A stretch of 64,000 nucleotides of DNA from Xanthocytophaga flava (GTDB taxonomy: Bacteria > Bacteroidota > Bacteroidia > Cytophagales > 172606-1). Below, piece by piece: positions 7,011 to 53,075 of the stretch (positions within the stretch are counted from its first letter, which is position 1; the number at the start of each line of letters is the position of its first letter). The notes below the pieces were generated by a model. The model was not told the origin of the DNA and did no database searches. It saw only the letters and a program-made list of their open reading frames with translations. The position numbers were made by a program, and so were the translations under genes. Location: the NCBI GenBank assembly GCA_030068525.1, contig JASJOS010000008.1, positions 1 to 64,000 on the forward strand, read 5' to 3'.

Positions 7011-7605
7011 TTGTCTGATCTGTTCGACACACCTGCCATCCATCACCGCCGCTCTATCCGGCTGTCAGATTATGATTATAGTCTGGCTGGTTTGTATTTT
7101 GTGACCATCTGTGTGAAGAACAGGCAATGTTTGCTTGGGCACATTGAACAGGGGCAAATGGTGTTGAATGAGGCGGGGGATAGCCCATCAGGAATGGGAA
7201 AAATCGGTCGAAATCCGACAGGGAATTGCATTGCATGAATTCATTATCATGCCCAATCACATGCATGGCATTGTCGAAATTATGGATACACAATGTAGGG
7301 GCGACTGGCAGGTCGCCCAGACCATTACCAAAGGCTCGGATCAAACCCATCGTTCGGCTGGGAATCAGGGCGATCTGCCAATCGCCCCTACAGGATTAAA
7401 TCCGAAATCGTTGGGTGCTATGATTGGTGGCTATAAAGCCAGTATAACCAAAAAGGTTAATGATACTCGGCAGACCTCAGGTTCTGTCTGGCAACGTAAT
7501 TATTATGAACACATCATCCGCAATGTCCATTCCCACCAGCAGATTGCCGAATACATCACTGCAAACCCTCTGCGATGGGAACAGGATACGTTGTATGCGT
7601 TATAA
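7011..7605 (+). pseudogene. RAYT (REP-associated tyrosine transposase), frameshifted copy
   Basis: Broken copy of the intact RAYT at 8559-9170. The first part (RRSIRLSDYDYSLAGLYFVT...) matches it nearly identically up to codon ~58; at about 7179 the bases TG present in the intact copy (GGGGGTGATAGCC) are missing (GGGGGATAGCC), shifting the frame. The second part, in the other frame, keeps the HUH motif IIMPNHMHG and the catalytic tyrosine context QRNYYEHIIRN. The ATG of the intact copy is ATC here, leaving only TTG at 7011. A REP-like inverted pair is nested at 7293-7398. RAYTs are Y1 HUH transposases of the IS200-like superfamily thought to move REP elements. Confidence 0.85.
7293..7398. repeat. 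REP-like inverted pair inside RAYT copy 1
   Basis: Left hairpin GTAGGGGCGA...TCGCCC and right hairpin GGGCGA...TCGCCCCTAC face each other across ~50 bp, like a BIME. The same GTAGGGGC/GCCCCTAC ends recur at 8865, 13168 and 21638. Confidence 0.75.
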
Positions 7606-7627
7606 GGATATTGCCTTGTACCTGTCC

Positions 7628-7686
7628 AGCAAGAGTTATCAGCCGGTTCATACCTCACATGCAGGTTGTAGAGGAAGAAAGTAAGC
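7628..7686 (-). repeat. decayed XRE-gene tail fragment, copy 3
   Basis: Minus-strand FFLYNLHVRYEP matches FFLFSMHITYNV of the XRE protein. It begins ~30 bases after the RAYT stop, in a stretch conserved after the second RAYT at 9171-9240, so the fragment travels with the transposase unit. Confidence 0.55.
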
Positions 7687-7713
7687 TATCAACCTGCATG
7701 TGGGGTATACTTG

Positions 7714-8370
7714 TTAATACAAATTCGTTTTCTCATCCTTTTTTATGCGATCATCCAGTTCTTCGTAGGAGATGTCGAGCTTTCCATGGTCAACTAGTAC
7801 CTTAGCCAGTGAGGGAACCGAATGCTCCTGTGTATAATCCGGATTTCTCCATAGGTTCGACCGGATCATACACTTGGCACAATGCATGAAGGCTTCTTTG
7901 ACAGTTACAATGATGGCAAATGAGGGTAGCTTACCTTCACAAGCTAACTGTTCCAGCACCCATTGGTCTGTGACTATTTTGGCTTCTCCATTGATCCGTA
8001 ATGTTTCCCTGACTCCCGGAATTAAAAAGATCAGACCTATATGCGGATTTTGAATGATGTTTGTGAGGGTATCTGCTTTACGGTTTCCTGGCCTGTCTGG
8101 GATAGCCAGTGTTTGTTCGTCCAATATTTTTACAAAACCTGCAGGATCTCCTTTGGGAGATACATCAAAATTGTTGCTCAGGTCAGCGGTGGCAATGGTA
8201 ATAAAAGGGGATTGTTCAATAAAGCTCCGGCAATGCTCATCAATATACCGGATTGTTTTTCGGGTAACGATCTCGTTGGGATATCCCATAATGTCCCGGA
8301 GTTCTTTTTCAGTAGTAATAATGTTGTCGAATGTCCATTCCATTAGTTTAGGGGTTTTAGATTCTGACAA
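7714..8370 (-). CDS. FMN-dependent PPOX-family flavoprotein
   Basis: Pyridoxamine 5'-phosphate oxidase-like protein of 218 residues, close in appearance to the MSMEG_1061 family. The split-barrel core is visible: FITIATADLSNNFDVSPKGDP, then VKILDEQTLAIPDRPGN, NPHIGLIFLIPG and ETLRINGEAKIV. These proteins bind FMN or F420 and reduce or oxidise small molecules; the substrate is unknown. It sits alone, convergent with the first RAYT unit and divergent from the second. Alternative start at residue 10 (MEWTF) is possible. No regulatory site is seen. Confidence 0.8.
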   Translation of the reverse strand: MSESKTPKLMEWTFDNIITTEKELRDIMGYPNEIVTRKTIRYIDEHCRSFIEQSPFITIATADLSNNFDVSPKGDPAGFVKILDEQTLAIPDRPGNRKADTLTNIIQNPHIGLIFLIPGVRETLRINGEAKIVTDQWVLEQLACEGKLPSFAIIVTVKEAFMHCAKCMIRSNLWRNPDYTQEHSVPSLAKVLVDHGKLDISYEELDDRIKKDEKTNLY

Positions 8371-8558
8371 AACGAGTGAAACTGTAGAAGTGTCTAATTT
8401 ACATTTAATTTTTGAGGGTCAACATTTTTTATGTTTTTTTCTGTTAGTCAGGAGTGTATTTCGCTTTGGGATAAGGAATAGTATAGCCCTTTCCTGACTA
8501 TCCGTCCCTGCTGGTTACCTAATGGTCTGTTGAACAGATACAGGTGTAAAATGTCTGT

Positions 8559-9170
8559 ATGTCGTCTGATTCGTTCTATAATCCTGCCATTCCTCGCCGC
8601 CGCTCTATCCGGCTGTCAGATTATGATTATAGTCTGGCTGGTTTGTATTTTGTGACCATCTGTGTGAAAGACAGGCAATGTTTGTTTGGCCACATTGAAC
8701 AGGGGCAAATGGTGTTAAATGAGGCGGGGGTGATAGCCCATCGTATTTGGTTTAGTCTGCCAGACCGATTTCAGACAATCAGTCTGGATGCATTTATTGT
8801 TATGCCCAATCATATACATGGCATTGTAGTGTTGAATGAGGTCGTAACAGAGAATCCTGTAGGGGCAGGGCTCGCCCCTGCCCAGTCTGACTGGGTGTTG
8901 CCTGTGTCTAAACCCGAACATACCGTTGGGAACGATCGGGCAGGGCTTGCCCCTGCCCCTACATTATCTGCGGTGATTGGAGCCTATAAATCATTGGTTT
9001 CTAAAGAATGCCTGACGATTTTTAAATCCAGGAATGAAAATATGGGCAAATTATGGCAACGTAACTACTATGAACACATCATCCGTAATGCCCATTCCCA
9101 CCAGCAGATTGCCGAATACATCAGCACCAACCCTCTGCGATGGGGACAGGATACGTTGTATGCGTTATAA
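8559..9170 (+). CDS. RAYT transposase, intact copy
   Basis: Y1 HUH transposase of the REP-associated family, 203 residues. The N-terminal RRRSIRLSDYDYSLAGLYFV strand, the HUH motif IVMPNHIHGIV (about residues 84-94) and the catalytic tyrosine in QRNYYEHIIRN (about 167-177) are all present, followed by the usual NPLRW end. Residues ~110-150 (VGAGLAPAQ...RAGLAPAPT) are not part of the family: they are the in-frame translation of a REP-like palindrome pair inserted in the gene at a multiple of three, so the frame survives. RAYTs cut and move REP sequences as single strands; this one may act on the GTAGGGGC elements in the window. Upstream bases 8537-8558 are shared with the broken copy at 7011. 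Confidence 0.9.
   Translation: MSSDSFYNPAIPRRRSIRLSDYDYSLAGLYFVTICVKDRQCLFGHIEQGQMVLNEAGVIAHRIWFSLPDRFQTISLDAFIVMPNHIHGIVVLNEVVTENPVGAGLAPAQSDWVLPVSKPEHTVGNDRAGLAPAPTLSAVIGAYKSLVSKECLTIFKSRNENMGKLWQRNYYEHIIRNAHSHQQIAEYISTNPLRWGQDTLYAL
8865..8963. repeat. REP-like inverted pair inside intact RAYT
   Basis: GTAGGGGCAGGGCTCGCCCC... and GGGGCAGGG-type complement GGGCTTGCCCCTGCCCCTAC form two facing palindromes within the coding frame. Stem bases differ from the 7293 copy (GGGGCAGGG versus GGGGCGACT) while pairing is kept. Confidence 0.75.
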
Positions 9171-12236: not shown

Positions 12237-12725
12237 CTACCTAAACAGATTACGCCATTCGATGGTATGTTCGGGAATGCCTAGTTGTTTAAGCCAAGTA
12301 GGAACAAAGAAGCTTGGACAGGCTTTGTTGGCAAATTGATTGTGTCCGGCAATCTTGATGTTGGGCGCATAGGTGAGTACTTCATGGATAATGGTTAGCA
12401 TGGTTTCGATTTGCTGGAGGGTGCGGGTGTCCTGGGCTTTGTGAAAGGTTTTGTCCAGACCTCCTACATAGCATAGGTGGCGGGAAATTGAGTTGATGCC
12501 TGCTACTCCATTGGTGATCTCGAAAGGGTCTATGGTCAGGTCGTTGTTATGCTTGACGAACTGGTGACGCGAGCCGTCTAGCAGGATCAGATCGGAGTAG
12601 CCGACTTGCTTCCAGCCATTGCCGTAGGGAATGGGAGCGGTGTGCCAGCGTTTCACATCTTCAGGGGAGACCCATCGTCCGGCAGGAGTGGCGGTGCAGT
12701 GAATGATTAGGTATTGGAAGTGCAT
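12237..12725 (-). CDS. phage-type N-acetylmuramoyl-L-alanine amidase (PGRP/Amidase_2)
   Basis: Peptidoglycan amidase of 162 residues, the endolysin type common in Bacteroidota phages. HFQYLIIHCTATPAG carries the first zinc ligand, then DVKRWH, GNGWKQVGYSDLILLDGS, and GHNQFANKACPSFFVPTWL with the second His and the Cys ligand. The ATG at 12725 is chosen because MHFQYLIIH is the normal domain edge; an upstream in-frame ATG at 12851 adds unrelated sequence. No signal peptide, so export would need a holin; a small membrane protein lies just upstream. It heads the lysis end of the phage-like block. Confidence 0.85.
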   Translation of the reverse strand: MHFQYLIIHCTATPAGRWVSPEDVKRWHTAPIPYGNGWKQVGYSDLILLDGSRHQFVKHNNDLTIDPFEITNGVAGINSISRHLCYVGGLDKTFHKAQDTRTLQQIETMLTIIHEVLTYAPNIKIAGHNQFANKACPSFFVPTWLKQLGIPEHTIEWRNLFR

Positions 12726-12912
12726 GGGTTTGTTATGTGTCGTGGTTTTTTGAAAGTGAATAGGACGTGTCGATACGTTGTGCTCTTCCCCAGGTTGTGT
12801 GTTATCACCAACCTGAATGGTGGGAAACAGGGTCGTTGGTGATAACACCAACGACGGGAACGAGTGGTTTATTGAAAGAGAAAAGGATGGGTTGTGAAGC
12901 CGTCCTGTTTTG

Positions 12913-14204: not shown

Positions 14205-14394
14205 AAATGTATAAGTAGTTGAATAGTGAAACCTAATCACCAGTCAGTGTCCGGACTACTTGCTGATTGACTTTACAAATATCGGCATTAAATACATGCG
14301 TTTTTGAGCGTAGTTTTGATTATCAGAACTACGCTCAAAACACAGGTTTGATTTACTTTTAGTTACTTTGACTTACTGTTTGTCTTACAAGACA

Positions 14395-14465
14395 CTTCCC
14401 CTGTACCTGTCATGATCCAATTCAGGTTTAGGTCATATGTGATATGCATACTGAAAAGCGGAAAG
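14395..14465 (-). repeat. decayed XRE-gene tail fragment, copy 6
   Basis: Minus-strand FPLFSMHITYDLNLNWIMTG is the closest relic to the intact FFLFSMHITYNVNLNWLMTG and still open, but no helix-turn-helix coding precedes it. It lies in the 370-base gap upstream of the cupin gene; the rest of that gap (14205-14394) shows only an AT-rich divergent promoter-like region. Confidence 0.6.
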
Positions 14466-14577
14466 TGCTGATAGTCAGTTGTAAAAAGGGTTATAGACAA
14501 TCGTTTTCTGATTAGCTATCTTTCCTGAACTTTATCTATTCCGTAACGGTACTTGTTTTACTTAGCTAATACCTTCT

Positions 14578-15120
14578 ATGAACCGCCGATCCTTTCTTTC
14601 ACTGCCCGCACTGGCCCCTTTTTCGTTTATTCCCCTTTCGTTTGTCCATGATCGACCTGACAAAGGAATTCGGGTTGATGCTGGAAAGGACCGTTTTAAT
14701 AAAAGCTTTACCTATCTGGGTGCTCGCTTTGATCTGAAAGTTTCCGGAAAGGATACAGATGGCGCAATGTGTATCTATGATACTCTCCGGTTTGAGAAGA
14801 TAGGGCCACCTTTGCACAAACATACCAACCTGGACGAATGGTTTTTTGTGATGGAAGGAGAGTTTAAAGTACAGATTGGACAAGACATCTTTCGGCTTAA
14901 GGCTGGTGATAGTGTATTGGGTCCTCGCGGAGTAGCTCATACCTTTGTCAAAACCAGCGACACCGTTGGCCGTTTGCTGCTGATTCATCAACCAGCGGGA
15001 ACCATGGAAGAATATTTTGCACAGGTTATCCAGCTGAAAGATCCAACACCAGAGCAAAAGAAAGCATTGCTGGTAAAACACAACATGGAAGCAGTAGGGT
15101 CTGCTTTGTCGCCGGATTAA
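14578..15120 (+). CDS. cupin-domain protein with Tat-like signal
   Basis: Single cupin barrel of 180 residues. MNRRSFLSLPALAP resembles a twin-arginine signal start, so periplasmic export is likely. Cupin motif 1 is PPLHKHTNLDEWFFVMEG with two His and a Glu for metal, motif 2 is GDSVLGPRGVAHTF with the third His. A conserved C-terminal helix (PTPEQKKALLVKHNMEAVG) follows. Enzymatic role is unknown; related proteins are often quercetinase- or sensor-like. It runs with the polysaccharide deacetylase 118 bases downstream; both are on the opposite strand to the surrounding phage-like genes. Confidence 0.8.
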   Translation: MNRRSFLSLPALAPFSFIPLSFVHDRPDKGIRVDAGKDRFNKSFTYLGARFDLKVSGKDTDGAMCIYDTLRFEKIGPPLHKHTNLDEWFFVMEGEFKVQIGQDIFRLKAGDSVLGPRGVAHTFVKTSDTVGRLLLIHQPAGTMEEYFAQVIQLKDPTPEQKKALLVKHNMEAVGSALSPD

Positions 15121-15237
15121 TTGATTACCAGGTAGTAGAATTACAACATCTTCCTTCAGGAATTGATAAACATACTGACAAGAGTAGTCACATTCAAATT
15201 TATCCGGAACTTTACAGCATCACCAGGCAGCGTCCAA

Positions 15238-16047
15238 ATGAAACAGGTTATCTTTCTTTCTTGTGTGATATTTTCTGTGAGTGCGTTTTCACAAACGAAT
15301 AGCTCTCCCAAAAAGTCTGCTGCAAAAGCGATCATCTGTCTTACCTATGATGATGGCCTGGCCTCTCACTTGTCGGTAGCTGTACCACAACTGGATTCGG
15401 CTGGTTTAAAAGCAACCTTTTTTCTGAATTCCATTGCAGGCTCATCAGATGTGATCGGGCAAGCTTCTGTAGCAGTAGTAGGCTGGCAACGGGCTGCACA
15501 GAAAGGGCATGAACTGGGTAATCATACCTTGTTTCATCCCTGCCCTGAAAAACTAGGGTGGGAAAAGCAAGTGGCTATCGAGCAGTATACCCTTAAACGG
15601 ATTCTGGAAGAAGTGACGCTGTCCAATGCTCTGCTATCACTACTGGACAATAAGAAAACCAAACGAACATTTGCCTATCCTTGCAATAATGTGATAGTAG
15701 AAGGAAAAGACTATTCTGCTGAACTAAAAAAGACAGGTCTGATTAGCTATGCCAGAGGCGGCGGTGATCGTACCAGTATGGTCGCTGATTACAAAGCCCT
15801 TAATCCAATGCAGGTACCGAGCTGGCTGGTGGAAGAGGGAACTACACTGAATGAACTCATTGCCTTTGCCGAGAAGGTGAAACAGGCAGGTGGAATGGGC
15901 ATTTATCAGTTTCATGGCATTGGTGGAGAGTTTTTTCAGATAAGCAAAGAGACACACAAGCTTTTTCTACAGTATCTGAATGCGAATAAAGAGCATTACC
16001 AGGTGGCTACCTTTTCAGAGGCTATGAATAGTATAACGACTCGTTAA
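15238..16047 (+). CDS. polysaccharide deacetylase (NodB domain)
   Basis: Secreted carbohydrate de-N-acetylase of 269 residues. The ATG at 15238 is chosen because it gives a clean signal peptide (MKQVIFLSCVIFSVSAFSQ). NodB motif 1 CLTYDDGLASH carries the catalytic Asp pair, ATFFLN follows, and motif 2 ELGNHTLFHPC holds the metal histidines; TFAYPCNN and the late YQFHGIGGE supply motifs 3-5. These enzymes remove acetyl groups from chitin-like polymers or peptidoglycan and may act on cell wall or dietary glycans. It forms a likely two-gene unit with the cupin and ends before a strong terminator. Confidence 0.85.
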   Translation: MKQVIFLSCVIFSVSAFSQTNSSPKKSAAKAIICLTYDDGLASHLSVAVPQLDSAGLKATFFLNSIAGSSDVIGQASVAVVGWQRAAQKGHELGNHTLFHPCPEKLGWEKQVAIEQYTLKRILEEVTLSNALLSLLDNKKTKRTFAYPCNNVIVEGKDYSAELKKTGLISYARGGGDRTSMVADYKALNPMQVPSWLVEEGTTLNELIAFAEKVKQAGGMGIYQFHGIGGEFFQISKETHKLFLQYLNANKEHYQVATFSEAMNSITTR

Positions 16048-16109
16048 TTCCTCTGTTTTTTTTTGGCAAGCATTGAGCTGATGAGTGTTCGTTTGTGTAC
16101 TAGTTTTTG

Positions 16110-16153
16110 CCAGATACAGCAGAGACATAGGATCGTGCCTCTGCTGTATCTGG
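16110..16153. terminator. bidirectional terminator hairpin
   Basis: Perfect 15-bp arms CCAGATACAGCAGAG / CTCTGCTGTATCTGG with a 14-base loop, between the convergent deacetylase and XRE genes. No T-run, but position fits termination from both sides. Confidence 0.7.
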
Positions 16154-16167
16154 ACTCATTCACAAAA

Positions 16168-16413
16168 TTAACCCTTTACTGGCTCTGGATTACAGGTAGC
16201 CTGTCCACATCCGGTCATTAACCAATTCAAGTTTACATTGTAGGTGATATGCATGCTAAACAGAAAGAAGCAGGAGGGGAGGCTCTGGCCTTTCTCCAGG
16301 GTAGAGATATTGCTTTGATTAATTCCCATCCGGCGGACGAATTCGCGTTGAGAGAGCCCCGTTATTTCAGTACGTACATGGTGTATGCGTTGGCCTATTT
16401 CCTGTAAGTTCAT
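16168..16413 (-). CDS. small XRE-family regulator, 81 aa
   Basis: Helix-turn-helix protein consisting of little more than one HTH_3 domain: MNLQEIGQRIHHVRTEITGL, then SQREFVRRMGINQSNISTLEKGQSLPS (scaffold, recognition helix) and FLFSMHITYNVNLNWLMTG closing helix. The ATG at 16413 is used; an upstream frame to 16533 runs through the repeat array and is not credible coding. Its 5' region contains eight 18-bp palindromes at 28-bp period (16463-16689), so it probably binds them and regulates itself. It sits in the phage-like block like a repressor or Cro. Fragments of its C-terminal coding region are scattered over at least six other sites in the window. Confidence 0.85.
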   Translation of the reverse strand: MNLQEIGQRIHHVRTEITGLSQREFVRRMGINQSNISTLEKGQSLPSCFFLFSMHITYNVNLNWLMTGCGQATCNPEPVKG

Positions 16414-16462: not shown

Positions 16463-16689
16463 TGCGGTTTATTCACCGCACGAAATGTTTTGCGGTAAAT
16501 AAACCGCATGGACACTTTTGCGGTGAACTCCACTCACTGTCCCTGTGGCTGATAGCATCTGCGGTGTATTCTGATCACCTCTGTGTTTGCAGTGAATAAA
16601 CCGCAGTTTTATTTATGCGTGGAATACACCGCAAATGTTCAGATGCGTGGAATATACCGCAAAATTAGCACTGCGGTAAATTCCACGCA
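16463..16689. repeat. 28-bp-periodic array of 18-bp palindromes, array 1
   Basis: Eight sites start at 16463, 16491, 16519, 16560, 16588, 16616, 16644 and 16672: spacing 28, 28, 41, 28, 28, 28, 28. Each is 18 bp, begins TG, ends CA and has a GAATTC-like centre, e.g. TGCGGTTTATTCACCGCA and TGCGTGGAATACACCGCA; the 10-bp spacers are unrelated. Twenty-eight is not a multiple of three, so this is not coding. It lies 50 bases upstream of the XRE start and just beyond the end of the 149-residue phage-like gene. Most likely an operator array; iteron or recombination function is possible. Confidence 0.9.
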
Positions 16690-16698
16690 GGACTTGGT

Positions 16699-17148
16699 TT
16701 ACCGAAGTTTAAATCCGAAACTTTGCTGGTCTTCTATCCAGGTGTCGAGGGCTGTGAATGCCAGCTTGAAGGCTGCCGTTTCAGCATCGTATCGGGTAGA
16801 GTAGCCACGTTTGCATGCCAGGTCATCGGGATCAGTGATCTGGTAGTTGGCATTGGTGTCTTGTAGGATCTGGAAGGTATAGACGATCTGCTTGTCTTGA
16901 AGCTGACCAAGGATGTTTATTACTACCCCTTTGGACTGGAAGAACTCATAAACCATACTGGAATAGCGTCTGTTCTTGCCTGTGATCGATAAGCGTATCG
17001 GTGACTTTTGCGGATCTGGATGTTGCAGGCCCCATTCGAGAAAATGCAGGTAAGCGTTTTCATAGGTCTGGGAGGCTCTGCGCCAAAAATTAGTCGATGA
17101 TTTGTGGTTTTGTTCGTATTGCTCGTAGGCTTCAGCGTCAAAATACAT
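16699..17148 (-). CDS. phage-block hypothetical protein, 149 aa
   Basis: Unrecognised soluble protein. Features: acidic Tyr-rich N-terminus (MYFDAEAYEQYEQNHKSS), central strand-rich region (SPIRLSITGKNRRYSS...VVINILGQLQDKQIVYTFQI) and a C-terminal helix (DAETAAFKLAFTALDTWIED) typical of small phage or satellite accessory proteins acting with replication genes. It follows the ASCH-like gene by 39 bases on the same strand, so it is probably part of the same operon. Confidence 0.6.
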   Translation of the reverse strand: MYFDAEAYEQYEQNHKSSTNFWRRASQTYENAYLHFLEWGLQHPDPQKSPIRLSITGKNRRYSSMVYEFFQSKGVVINILGQLQDKQIVYTFQILQDTNANYQITDPDDLACKRGYSTRYDAETAAFKLAFTALDTWIEDQQSFGFKLR

Positions 17149-17187: not shown

Positions 17188-17595
17188 TTAGTTAGAATAG
17201 CGGTGTTGGGTCCAGTGAATAATCTTGCCAAAGAAGTTTTCCGAATCGGTCAGAAACCAGCAGTAAAACTCTTCTGTGGTGAGTCCGTCGTTGTGGGCTA
17301 GCTGTCGGGTCTGAGCAGGTGTAAGCAGCTTCCAGGTAGTGCCATCCTGGCTAACGGTCACAACATAGCCCACTTTGTGCTCACTTGAGCGGGTGATGGC
17401 AATGTATTCTGTACCATGACAGACCGCTTGATTAAATGCATACGGATGGCTGGTTGTATGGCGGGGATTACCCAGCCAGAAATCTATCTTCCGACCAGGC
17501 TTCCACCGATTGGAAAAATCCTGACGGATGGTATGTATTTTAGAACCTTGTGTGATTTTATCTATAAACTCCGGTTTTGAAAAGGTCAGTATCAT
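17188..17595 (-). CDS. ASCH/PUA-like phage protein, 135 aa
   Basis: N-terminal MILTFSKPEFIDKITQGSKIHTIRQD and RWKPGRKIDFWLG match the ASCH-type pattern (K-x-H-T-I-R and the G-x-x-hydrophobic strand), a PUA-like fold seen in RNA-binding or nucleotide-handling proteins and common in Bacteroidota phages. The C-terminal part includes LAHNDGLTTEEFYCWFL, a frequent companion in those phage homologues. It starts inside the upstream VRR-NUC gene with a 4-base ATGA overlap, so they are translationally coupled. Biochemical role unknown. Confidence 0.65.
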   Translation of the reverse strand: MILTFSKPEFIDKITQGSKIHTIRQDFSNRWKPGRKIDFWLGNPRHTTSHPYAFNQAVCHGTEYIAITRSSEHKVGYVVTVSQDGTTWKLLTPAQTRQLAHNDGLTTEEFYCWFLTDSENFFGKIIHWTQHRYSN

Positions 17596-17960
17596 AATGC
17601 GTTTGTAGGGATAGTTTGGATAGTCTGTGTATGGATAGTGGTGATCAATTGTTTAAAAGCCTCATAGCTGCGAATAATGTGGTAGTATCCCCCTTGTGCT
17701 TCAATTCTGGACTGGAATAGTTTCTGTTCTTCGCTCTGGATGCCTTCTTGTGATTTTAACTCTATAAAATGGCCTGTAGAGGCAAAGAAGTACTCCAGGT
17801 CTGCTACTCCTTTGACAACTCCCATTGAGCGGTTTAAAGCGCCTTTAATGGCGTTTTGGGCGGTGTTGTTGTTCATATGTAATAAGCCTCTGTAGTGAGG
17901 AAATGTATTCCAGTGCCATTGAAAGCATAGGCCTTGTAAACGAGATTCGGTTGGTTGCAT
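17592..17960 (-). CDS. VRR-NUC domain nuclease
   Basis: Small stand-alone VRR-NUC (PD-D/E-xK superfamily) protein of 122 residues. SRLQGLCFQWHWNTFPHYRG opens the fold, then GVVKGVADLEYFFAS with the catalytic Asp, FIELKSQEG with the E-x-K motif, and a closing helix FQSRIEAQGGYYHIIRSYEAF. The N-terminal 28 residues belong to the family, so the ATG at 17960 is preferred to an internal one. Phage VRR-NUC proteins act as structure-specific endonucleases, probably resolving recombination or replication intermediates. Next to the origin-like region and the primase gene. Confidence 0.85.
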   Translation of the reverse strand: MQPTESRLQGLCFQWHWNTFPHYRGLLHMNNNTAQNAIKGALNRSMGVVKGVADLEYFFASTGHFIELKSQEGIQSEEQKLFQSRIEAQGGYYHIIRSYEAFKQLITTIHTQTIQTIPTNAL

Positions 17961-18015
17961 ATAGGTTTGTATAGTTTAGAAGATAAATAGCTGATAATAA
18001 GATTAGTTGCACTTA

Positions 18016-18268
18016 GTTACACAGGGTTACACAGTCTGTTACACTTCTAACTGCTTGTAAATGTGGAGAGTTACATAGGTTACACTGATTTCTTCTATAC
18101 ACGTGTTTTATTATATTATAATAATATATAAAAAGGGGGTATAGCTATTGCTCTATTCTTCCTAGGGACTTCTGCGAAAATGGCAAAACTGTGTATCTAT
18201 TGTAACTCGCCTCATTGTCAATGTGTTAAGGTGTAACTTTACGTGTAACGGACGTGTAACGCTGTAAC
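18016..18268. other. iteron-like candidate replication origin
   Basis: Three GTTACAC (18016, 18026, 18038), a GTTACAT (18070) and a fourth GTTACAC (18079) on the left; an AT-only stretch near 18108-18130; then the reverse complement GTGTAAC at 18231, 18243 and 18254 plus TGTAAC at 18263. Inverted iteron clusters around an AT-rich unwinding region, directly downstream of the primase-helicase gene, look like a phage or satellite origin. No gene lies here (17961-18268). Confidence 0.5.
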
Positions 18269-20464
18269 CTACTTGAGTGTGTGTAGCTTTTCAGCATCAC
18301 ATAGCACCCAGAATCCCCTGACAGTTTTACCTTGTAGTTTGACTGGTTTGCCATTGTTATTGTCAAAACCAAGTGATTTCATAGCCCTACCAATCTTATC
18401 CGGGCTCAGATTTTTATAAGAACTGTAGATCTGAAGGAAGTTACCAATACTTGTAGCCGATACGAAGACGGCTCCATCGGCTCCCGGAGTGCATTGGGTA
18501 AAGTGTCGGATAATCAACTCCTCTTCTTTGGAACGCAATCGGTATTCTTCGGCTACCTCATTGATCTGTGCCATTTCCTCGTCGGTCATGTCTGTATCAA
18601 TACCTTTTATATACAAGTGATAAGCTTCTTTCCAGACCTCATATTTGTCTACTGCATTGTAGATGTCCCAGTTGATTCTTTTTGTGAGTTCAATCACCCC
18701 AAAACGTCTGTTACCTGTACTGTCTTCCAGAAAGTCCACCTCATTAGCACAACCGGCAAAGTTGACCAGACGTGGTTTATTCTGACCTCGTCTGTCGTAG
18801 TTGTAGCGCATGTAGATGGTCGGCTGGGTGATCATGGCTTTCATGCGTTTGTAGCCCATCTTCTCAATGCTGACAAACTCCTCATCAATGGCTATCCAGG
18901 ATGAGCTCATGACCAGATCATCCTGGTAGGTGCGTACTCCGAAAATGTGTGGGGTGATTAACTCGGTACGACAATGCAGATTGTCGGGCAGCAGTTGTTT
19001 AATCCACGAACTTTTACCCGCTTTCTGCTTGCCCGCCAGTACCAGCATCACACTGCTGTACTCTTCAAACGCCGATCCTACACACCCTACCAGCCATTTG
19101 CGTAGCACCGTAGCGGCAAAGTCATGACCATGCTTACAGTCCAATGATTCGGCCAGACGCTGGATATGGCCTGTAGTGGCACTTCCCATGCCTTCAAAGA
19201 ATACCCGCAGCGGGTTAAACTCGACAATACCTGACGACTTCATGTAGTCATTTGCTATATCTTTGGTGACAGGCGAGAGTGTTTTTCGGGCAGCATCAAT
19301 GGTAATGTCGATCAGGTCTTTTTCGGTCAGACGGACATAGTTGCGGTAGATCTCCTGATTAAGCACATTACGTTTGAGGTCAGGCTGATACTCTCTGAAA
19401 TAGGTTTCCAGTTTGACCCAAAGCGGAATGCGGTCTTCGTCCACTTCATTCGACCCGGCATAGACCTGCTCTACGATAGGGCGTGTAATCGCAGGGTCCA
19501 TGCCATATACTTCCTGCAGTACATTGACAGTACCCTCTGCTGTATTGCTTCCATTCTTACCCAGTTTGGCTGACTGCACAATGGCTTTGGTCTGGTCGGA
19601 AATAATGCTGATACCTTGTTGTTTGCAATACCACAGAAAGGTAGCAATAGTCACTTTCTTTAAGCTGGTGGCATTGTGTCTGAGACAGGCTGTAAACTGC
19701 AGGTCCGCCTTTTTGGCATCATACAAAGAGGAGAACTGACTTACAGCCAGAAAGCGGTCGCGGCCTGCTTCCCCAAAATAATCAGCCAGGGCAAAGGCAA
19801 TGTTACACCACTGATGATACCCACCTGTGACGTCTATCTGCTGGCTCTGGATCTGGTCAAACACATGATCTATGTCATGGGTGCTAAAGTAGATATTACG
19901 TGTATCCGGGCGTTTCTTTTCCTTTTCGGGATAGATTTTAAACACCTTCGGCTCTTCATTGAGAAACAAGTCTGGATCATAGCTGACAAACCGTAGACGC
20001 GAAACATTACGACCCGATGGATCGACAATCTGGCTGTAGAGCTGAAAATAATACTGTGTCAGTCCATCAAAGGCCAGTTTGTGTTTTTTGCCTTCAATCT
20101 TCACTACAATACACAACCCTTTGCCCCGGCAACTGGTAAAGACAGCATAGGTGTAGGGGTCTTCTTCCAGAAAGGCTTTGACTTTTTCCACATCTGTTAC
20201 ATAGTCCAGGTCAATCGCTATAAAGTTGGAATGCTTTTGCAGGTCGCTGTCACTTTTCCCCCCTGTGAATAAGCCCGAAATAGTCACGGCATTCAGTTTC
20301 TCCTTTAGCTTTTTCTGCGTCTGCTCATTTTTAGATTCGCGTACTTTCTGTACAGCATTTTTCCAGGTTCCGTTTTTGATGTTTTCCAGAAAAGTGTTCA
20401 GGGAGTATTCCTGCCCGGTTTTGGCATAAGCGTCTGAAAATAGAGTGATCGTATGGTTAGTCAT
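18269..20464 (-). CDS. primase-helicase fusion (BT4734-like + VapE)
   Basis: Replication protein of 731 residues. The N-terminal ~200 residues are a BT4734/BF3469-type domain: ISGLFTGGKSDSDLQKHSNFIAIDLD, YAVFTSCRGKGLCIVVKIEG, and RLRFVSYDPDLFLNE, resembling archaeo-eukaryotic primase small domains. A middle linker follows. From ~420 a VapE/virulence-associated helicase domain begins, with Walker A LAGKQKAGKSSW near 475-486, Walker B-like WIAIDEEF near 523, and arginine-rich FAGCANEVDFLEDSTGNRRFG. This architecture primes and unwinds DNA in phages and satellites. A paralogous stand-alone N-domain lies at 21062. Start at MTNHTITLFSDAY. Confidence 0.85.
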   Translation of the reverse strand: MTNHTITLFSDAYAKTGQEYSLNTFLENIKNGTWKNAVQKVRESKNEQTQKKLKEKLNAVTISGLFTGGKSDSDLQKHSNFIAIDLDYVTDVEKVKAFLEEDPYTYAVFTSCRGKGLCIVVKIEGKKHKLAFDGLTQYYFQLYSQIVDPSGRNVSRLRFVSYDPDLFLNEEPKVFKIYPEKEKKRPDTRNIYFSTHDIDHVFDQIQSQQIDVTGGYHQWCNIAFALADYFGEAGRDRFLAVSQFSSLYDAKKADLQFTACLRHNATSLKKVTIATFLWYCKQQGISIISDQTKAIVQSAKLGKNGSNTAEGTVNVLQEVYGMDPAITRPIVEQVYAGSNEVDEDRIPLWVKLETYFREYQPDLKRNVLNQEIYRNYVRLTEKDLIDITIDAARKTLSPVTKDIANDYMKSSGIVEFNPLRVFFEGMGSATTGHIQRLAESLDCKHGHDFAATVLRKWLVGCVGSAFEEYSSVMLVLAGKQKAGKSSWIKQLLPDNLHCRTELITPHIFGVRTYQDDLVMSSSWIAIDEEFVSIEKMGYKRMKAMITQPTIYMRYNYDRRGQNKPRLVNFAGCANEVDFLEDSTGNRRFGVIELTKRINWDIYNAVDKYEVWKEAYHLYIKGIDTDMTDEEMAQINEVAEEYRLRSKEEELIIRHFTQCTPGADGAVFVSATSIGNFLQIYSSYKNLSPDKIGRAMKSLGFDNNNGKPVKLQGKTVRGFWVLCDAEKLHTLK

Positions 20465-52794: not shown

Positions 52795-53075
52795 TGCGGT
52801 TAATTCCGATCAAATTCTTTTTTGCGGTGAGTTATGCGCAAAGGAAAAAATGATCGGAGTTCTGGTCAAAATTTAATTTGCGGTAAGTTATGCGCATCAA
52901 TGAAAGTGATCGGAATAAAATGCAATTTGTTTGGTGACTGATGAGGTTGGGCTGCCCTTACAAAAAAATAGTTTGCATAGAACTATGCTCAATCCCTTTC
53001 ATGCGGTGAACTCTGCACAGAGAACTTTTTGGCGTCAATTCTCATCAAATTACTTTGTGAGACAAACTAAACACA
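52795..53075. repeat. 28-bp-periodic array of 18-bp palindromes, array 2
   Basis: Nine sites begin at 52795, 52823, 52851, 52879, 52907, then after a 67-base break 52974, 53002, 53030 and 53058. Each is 18 bp, begins TG and ends CA with a GARYTC-like core: TGCGGTTAATTCCGATCA, TGCGGTGAGTTATGCGCA, TGATCGGAGTTCTGGTCA, TGCGGTAAGTTATGCGCA and so on. Spacers are 10 bp and unrelated. Half-sites GCGGT and GATCG alternate. Flanks an 820-base gap without genes, upstream of the nucleotidyltransferase gene; no XRE gene is beside it. Confidence 0.85.

Follow-up and report, generated by a model that had tools for sequence, protein, structure and literature searches.

A 28-bp lattice of near-symmetric 18-bp sites beside an XRE regulator gene of Xanthocytophaga flava, a probable operator within a paralog family with dispersed cognate arrays

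The DNA analyzed here, referred to as the window, is a stretch of 64,000 nucleotides from Xanthocytophaga flava (contig JASJOS010000008.1, positions 1 to 64,000). It contains a cassette of genes on the reverse strand, in the order VapE/BT4734-like primase (731 aa, 18269-20464), nuclease-like protein (122 aa, 17592-17960), a 149-aa protein without a family match (16699..17148), array 1 (16463..16689), an 81-aa XRE protein with an HTH_19/HTH_3 domain (xre, 16168..16413), small ORFs and, at the far end, a lysis-type amidase (12237..12851). No integrase or capsid gene was noticed among the long ORFs, ten proteins of which were profile-searched. Homologs of the 149-aa gene also precede other xre arrays in the corresponding position, as at locus L103. 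Relative to the congener locus L105, the cassette is interrupted by a stretch (14458-16211) with two opposite-strand ORFs, named by eye as cupin-like (14578-15120) and deacetylase-like (15163-16047). Within the xre 3' end, 53 bp are matched on both sides of this stretch, and a partial second copy of the xre 3' end (14381..14464, reverse strand) lies beyond it. Between the primase and nuclease-like genes, positions 18001-18260 contain many GTTACAC/GTGTAAC words and are 82% identical to positions 377-614 of locus L093, raising the question of whether the cassette has another cis element here. Two REP-associated tyrosine transposase (RAYT) genes (7168-7605 and 8559-9170) are located elsewhere in the window, within 7014-9170; a related gene, at locus L113, shows a GTAGGGGCGA...TCGCCC repeat typical of RAYT REPs.

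Array 1 consists of eight 18-bp sites starting at 16463, 16491, 16519, 16560, 16588, 16616, 16644 and 16672, with start spacings of 28, 28, 41, 28, 28, 28 and 28 bp. It takes up the greater part of the interval from the 149-aa gene to xre, its nearest site lying 49 bp from the xre start codon. The eight TG...CA sites of the original prediction were reproduced in both place and spacing. The GARYTC core ascribed to them is exact in one site of eight, whereas TG-N5-WRYW-N5-CA fits all eight. They had also been called palindromes; they are near-symmetric, but imperfectly so, with 4 to 7 of 9 pairs matching their own reverse complement. Likewise, the spacers are unrelated within array 1, as had been stated, but sister arrays at other loci have spacers in common. 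The array is genuine and its regular spacing is beyond chance: the 392,576-bp contig holding the window contains 192 matches to TG-N5-WRYW-N5-CA, including 18 pairs 28 or 29 bp apart, while eight first-order Markov imitations of the contig gave 153-177 sites and no such pair. The earlier exclusion of a CRISPR stands, since in CRISPRs the repeats are near-identical and the spacers some 26-40 bp long, and the array has variable 18-mers with 10-bp spacers. At the orthologous locus of the congener, L105, about 306 bp (944-1249 of that locus) are extra at window position 16664, inside the array region.

Arrays of this form are not confined to the vicinity of xre. The window itself holds a solitary second array (array 2, 52795..53075) of nine sites, spaced 28, 28, 28, 28, 67, 28, 28 and 28 bp, in which the half-sites are mixed. 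The pattern TGCGGTNWATWNACCGCA, with at most two mismatches, occurs 46 times in the own genome (G000, 9.49 Mb) versus once for the reversed pattern, and 61 versus three times in the complete congener G002; the related genomes in which the original prediction would have period-28 sites sought thus include one that carries them. Counts in the other family genomes, G001, G003, G005, G007, G006 and G004, are 0, 2, 5, 3, 8 and 11 against 3, 2, 3, 0, 7 and 0 for the reversed pattern. G001 is a congener with a completeness of just 72%, and the 11 matches in G004 are widely separated. A blastn search with array 2, which is blind to arrays of other motif, matched two of 39 genomes (G000 and G002), and no member of the array sequence family was found in any other genus searched. 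Sites 27-29 bp apart are present in 23 of 24 loci (the window, 20 fetched regions and three 3-kb loci, with regions picked around pattern hits); L013 is the sole exception. The contig holding the window has four strict arrays and two G-type arrays (named, as below, after the clades of the XRE family), from which we extrapolate about 100-150 arrays per genome. For two further motifs, TGAC (G) is found at 116 places versus three for the control, and YAAC (H) at 42 and 45 on the two strands versus 11 and 12. Array 1 had been regarded as the single operator of one gene. That reading is not supported: just two of the 60 own-genome arrays found by the strict rule adjoin an xre gene, namely array 1 and L073. 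Across loci L001-L103 and the window, no xre homolog was found except at the window locus and two duplicates of it, L103 and L073.

The XRE protein matches Pfam HTH_19 and HTH_3 above cut-off. Profile matches include the 434 repressor (2.4e-6) and P22 c2 (about 1.5e-3), and the 434 repressor is among the nearest solved structures; a single-sequence AlphaFold model has a mean pLDDT of 47.5. The protein belongs to a close family of 23 full-length members with at least 51% identity, 11 and 12 in the two genomes. In a search of 291 genomes drawn from the order, members of this family score E-values of 2.4e-39 or lower and matches outside G000 and G002 reach 7.7e-15 at best. Searches for XRE relatives gave four weak loci in genome_contigs, from which close relatives of the window genome are possibly excluded, and two weak loci in viral_contigs.

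Most members of the family have the lattice upstream. It was scored without reference to any motif, as direct 6-mer repeats at multiples of 28 bp in the 450 bp upstream, against a background of 2000 random contig windows (mean 0.8, 95th percentile 3, 99th percentile 7.01; the maximum of 46 arises because the contig's own arrays are included). Counts by XRE clade are 12-23 in A, 5-12 in B, 7-20 in C, 16-19 in E, 30-59 in G and 3-9 in H, and 0 in D and F (three of the 23 loci). The 99th percentile is exceeded at 16 of the 23 paralogs and the 95th at 19. An earlier lag test based on palindromes showed lag 28 clearly in A, E, H and part of G only. Remote XREs score low: 0-1 at four loci in the same two genomes and at most 3 at 18 loci in 17 other genomes, where the match may not begin at the start codon. 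Many arrays depart from the lattice at a single step, of 39-41 bp, which amounts to 28 bp and roughly one helical turn. This step is 41 bp in A, C and H and 39 bp in G, and a step of 67 bp (28+39) occurs at two A loci, in B and in solitary arrays.

The motif on this lattice varies with XRE clade, with half-sites such as TGCGGT, TGAAC, TGACCGG and YAACCGG. TGCGGT makes up 35 of 56 halves in clade A, TGAAC 12 of 16 in E and TGACTG, TGACCA and TGACCG together 32 of 48 in G; YAACCG, YAACCT and YAACTG account for most halves in H. For E and H, the site rules were chosen by inspection and impose the outer letters; the lattice test is independent of them. Together with the lattice at 16 of 23 paralogs, the change of half-site with clade indirectly supports the original proposal that the XRE protein is the ligand. 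Since xre and array are linked, part of the match between motif and clade may reflect shared descent. In the paralog alignment, residues 32, 34 and 38 differ between clades and Q33 is invariant; the variable residues align with T27, Q29 and Q33 of the 434 repressor and XRE Q33 with its Q28, four positions which we take to be base-contacting. Clades G and H have helix 3 in common, with W for R at residue 23 in H alone, which is also the sole clade with YA in place of TG as the outer pair. Two cases count against a match between recognition residues and motif: clade D has the helix-3 residues of C, yet different and sparse sites, and in L108, of clade A, residue 38 is I rather than T while the motif is unchanged.

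Comparison of the two species indicates that the sites are conserved beside xre. Across six xre-linked ortholog pairs (A, B, C, E and two H), substitutions affect 34 of 702 site positions versus 72 of 478 spacer positions (odds ratio 0.29), a divergence about threefold lower in sites, and this contrast survives dropping any one pair. There is no contrast in pair E alone (1/72 in sites, 0/30 in spacers) or in an alternative H pairing left out of the six (L124/L125; 3/108 and 4/91). Under a relaxed site rule, the two xre-linked G pairs agree with the six (10/162 and 6/126 in sites, 16/148 and 15/116 in spacers); the strict rule, which picks up only a minority of G sites, gives the opposite direction (6/72 and 26/90 versus 16/210 and 23/275). 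For 23 solitary pairs, the values are 163/2172 in sites and 127/1325 in spacers (odds ratio 0.77), with 693/12224 in the partly coding flanks. The xre-linked and solitary odds ratios differ (z = -3.9 for the difference of log odds), indicating that sites next to xre are conserved and that those of solitary arrays drift with hardly any constraint.

On the basis of the lattice at most paralogs, the change of half-site with clade and the conservation of sites, array 1 is most probably a multi-site operator of the adjacent 434/P22-like XRE protein. We infer the following mechanism. An XRE dimer would occupy each 18-bp site. In most of the family the sites have TG/CA outside and WRYW at the center, and the inner bases would be read by those residues of the recognition helix that vary. 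Binding of several dimers to the 28-bp lattice would be cooperative and would regulate, most likely repress, an xre promoter located within the array or next to it. The xre paralogs number about a dozen in each genome, and most would have an operator version of their own. Arrays without xre had spread before the two species split and persist between genes, as potential decoys that would titrate the repressors or as relics. This whole reading, of radiated repressors with their own operator arrays and old dispersed copies, is in our judgment probable.

The solitary arrays, whose loci are mostly the same in both species and rarely lie between divergent genes, are best read as such old dispersed copies, potentially still bound or relics. 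Of 28 congener array loci, 23 are solitary with an orthologous array in G000. Among the other five (L151, L159, L158, L103 and L164), L151 is xre-linked and orthologous to L073, the flanks of L159 are orthologous and the array between them matches weakly, the flanks of L158 are found at two distant places and L103 is a paralogous cassette. Of the 60 own-genome arrays, 55 could be placed and five were too near the locus edge; with genes called as long ORFs only, 28 lie between tandem, 22 between convergent and five between divergent genes, both xre-linked arrays being among the five. By comparison, 107 contig gaps of at least 250 bp comprise 57 tandem, 19 convergent and 31 divergent. Twenty sampled G/H arrays, with no xre found within about 3 kb on each side, are seven tandem, 12 convergent and none divergent, one being inside a doubtful ORF. 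All 20 of these loci have at least two lattice sites and 18 have at least three, compared with 2.0% and 0.33% of random 800-bp windows. Four solitary G-type loci (L213, L214, L223 and L224) show the spacing series 57, 39, 28... seen upstream of xre in L117 and L118, so arrays were evidently copied with their entire layout. L027 (4523-4807) and L093 (981-1265) share a 285-bp repeat with 88% identity, which adjoins arrays at both loci and weakly matches its own reverse complement.

The composition of solitary sites suggests a possible extension of this model. Among 812 halves of 406 solitary sites from both genomes, TGCGGT occurs 157 times, TGATCG 96 times and TGCGCA 70 times. The same inner 4-mer is found on both sides in three of 199 distinct own-genome 18-mers, where 9.7 are expected (P 0.007, a guide only, the copies being related). 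When 78 solitary arrays were compared with clade profiles, the mixed B profile was best for 43, whose halves resemble A, G and C; the remainder were assigned to G (16), C (8), A (6), H (4) and E (1), with the G and H numbers set by sampling. Solitary sites therefore join unlike half-sites, which is ground for considering heterodimers. Tentatively, and with doubt, we suggest a combinatorial half-site code in which about a dozen paralogous XREs form homo- and heterodimers and every monomer recognizes a single half-site; mixed solitary arrays would be addresses for particular XRE pairs, occupied as cooperative filaments on the 28-bp lattice that, throughout the chromosome, titrate repressors or block read-through at gene ends.

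The alternative to be taken most seriously, though we consider it unlikely, is a neutral or once-mobile repeat family that stands beside xre by chance or cassette duplication, its lattice inherited from one ancestral array with gain and loss of whole units. Such a family would fit the great excess of arrays without xre over the two in 60 that adjoin it, the drift of solitary sites at nearly the rate of spacers, and the failure of any gene to recur beside the 60 arrays at more than four loci; a common neighbor was rejected, as the largest family looks like a general regulator family. Eight of 11 indels of at least 10 bp inside arrays measure 27-29 or 56 bp, compared with one of six outside, and both xre-linked G pairs have one side without a whole 28-bp unit. 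Slippage between units explains these 28-bp steps, but not a lattice common to different motifs. A repeat family is also at odds with the conservation of xre-linked sites (34/702 versus 72/478) and with a motif that differs by clade on a constant lattice upstream of most paralogs. Array ends, judged by eye in checking for derivation from a MITE or IS, differ between copies. No clean empty site was found at the two loci tried (L158 and L159) and no target duplication was noticed in an unsystematic look.

A second alternative, which we hold to be improbable, is that the arrays act as structured RNA or single-stranded DNA, forming hairpin chains (terminators or stability elements) to which xre adjacency is incidental. 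Five folds from four array stretches, with arrays 1 and 2 on both strands and L008 on one, gave z-scores of -4.4 to -9.8, and placement favors convergent gene ends; palindromes, however, fold well on any strand. Moreover, the inner half-sites of solitary arrays are non-complementary within a site (1.69 of 5 versus 1.95 for background) and to the next site (1.45), and only the second-next is slightly higher (2.27; direct comparison 2.39). Very unlikely is a genome-wide XRE regulon in which solitary arrays are operators of neighboring genes. Although 28 of the 55 placed arrays lie between tandem genes, divergent gaps are avoided, at 5/55 and, for G/H arrays, 0/20 versus 31/107 contig gaps. Across 25 ortholog pairs, two of them xre-linked, TG/CA positions changed less than inner positions (19/588 versus 134/1470), but this measure is biased because the sites are defined by those letters, and the inner bases drift. 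That the arrays are REPs of the two RAYT transposases encoded in the window is scarcely credible, as the sites begin with TG or YA, are without the GTAG foot that many RAYT REPs tabulated in PMC2817692 have, and form no strict array near 7014-9170, the nearest on the contig being about 7 kb or more away.

No described system with such an arrangement was found in open-licence PMC papers, and several share some of its features. The arrays resemble the REP and BIME elements of RAYTs, as described in PMC2817692, in being regularly spaced, high-copy intergenic composites; they differ in the missing GTAG foot, in their linkage to xre rather than to RAYT genes and in inner halves that are mostly not self-complementary. 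The original statement that they are not REPs is thus upheld for RAYT REPs, but their intergenic spread is REP-like. According to the account of mycobacteriophage stoperators in PMC9283540, many repressor sites are dispersed in short intergenic gaps of a phage genome, where a monomer binds asymmetric 13-mers. The dispersed intergenic placement is alike; here, the 18-bp sites have two halves, are arrayed and extend across a bacterial chromosome, in place of asymmetric 13-mers oriented with transcription, and the stoperator class was therefore rejected. A radiation of paralogous XREs is also seen in Caulobacter and phage phiCbK, for which heteromers have been proposed to account for one strong and one weak half-site; passages of PMC10688885 on these proteins report neither 28-bp arrays nor dispersed array families.

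The closest likeness is to the 434 and P22 c2 repressors, which share the small XRE fold with the window protein by sequence. The operators of 434 and P22 are near-symmetric sites, several per control region. Array 1 likewise has near-symmetric sites with an A/T-biased center, grouped at the gene of a related XRE protein, and autoregulation would be similarly plausible. In contrast to 434 and P22, up to nine or ten sites stand here at a fixed 28 bp, and a radiated paralog family is accompanied by cognate arrays scattered over the host chromosome. With about a dozen paralogs per genome, the majority adjoining an array of their own, and with the lattice kept and the motif changed, the family is a comparison set suited to mapping XRE recognition residues to bases and to following the co-change of regulator and site. 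In addition, the scattered arrays make control by decoys (titration) and the mixing of paralogs in dimers testable at chromosome scale. What is known is the 434/P22 type of operator; what is new is the common lattice, the changing motif and the genome-wide cognate arrays.
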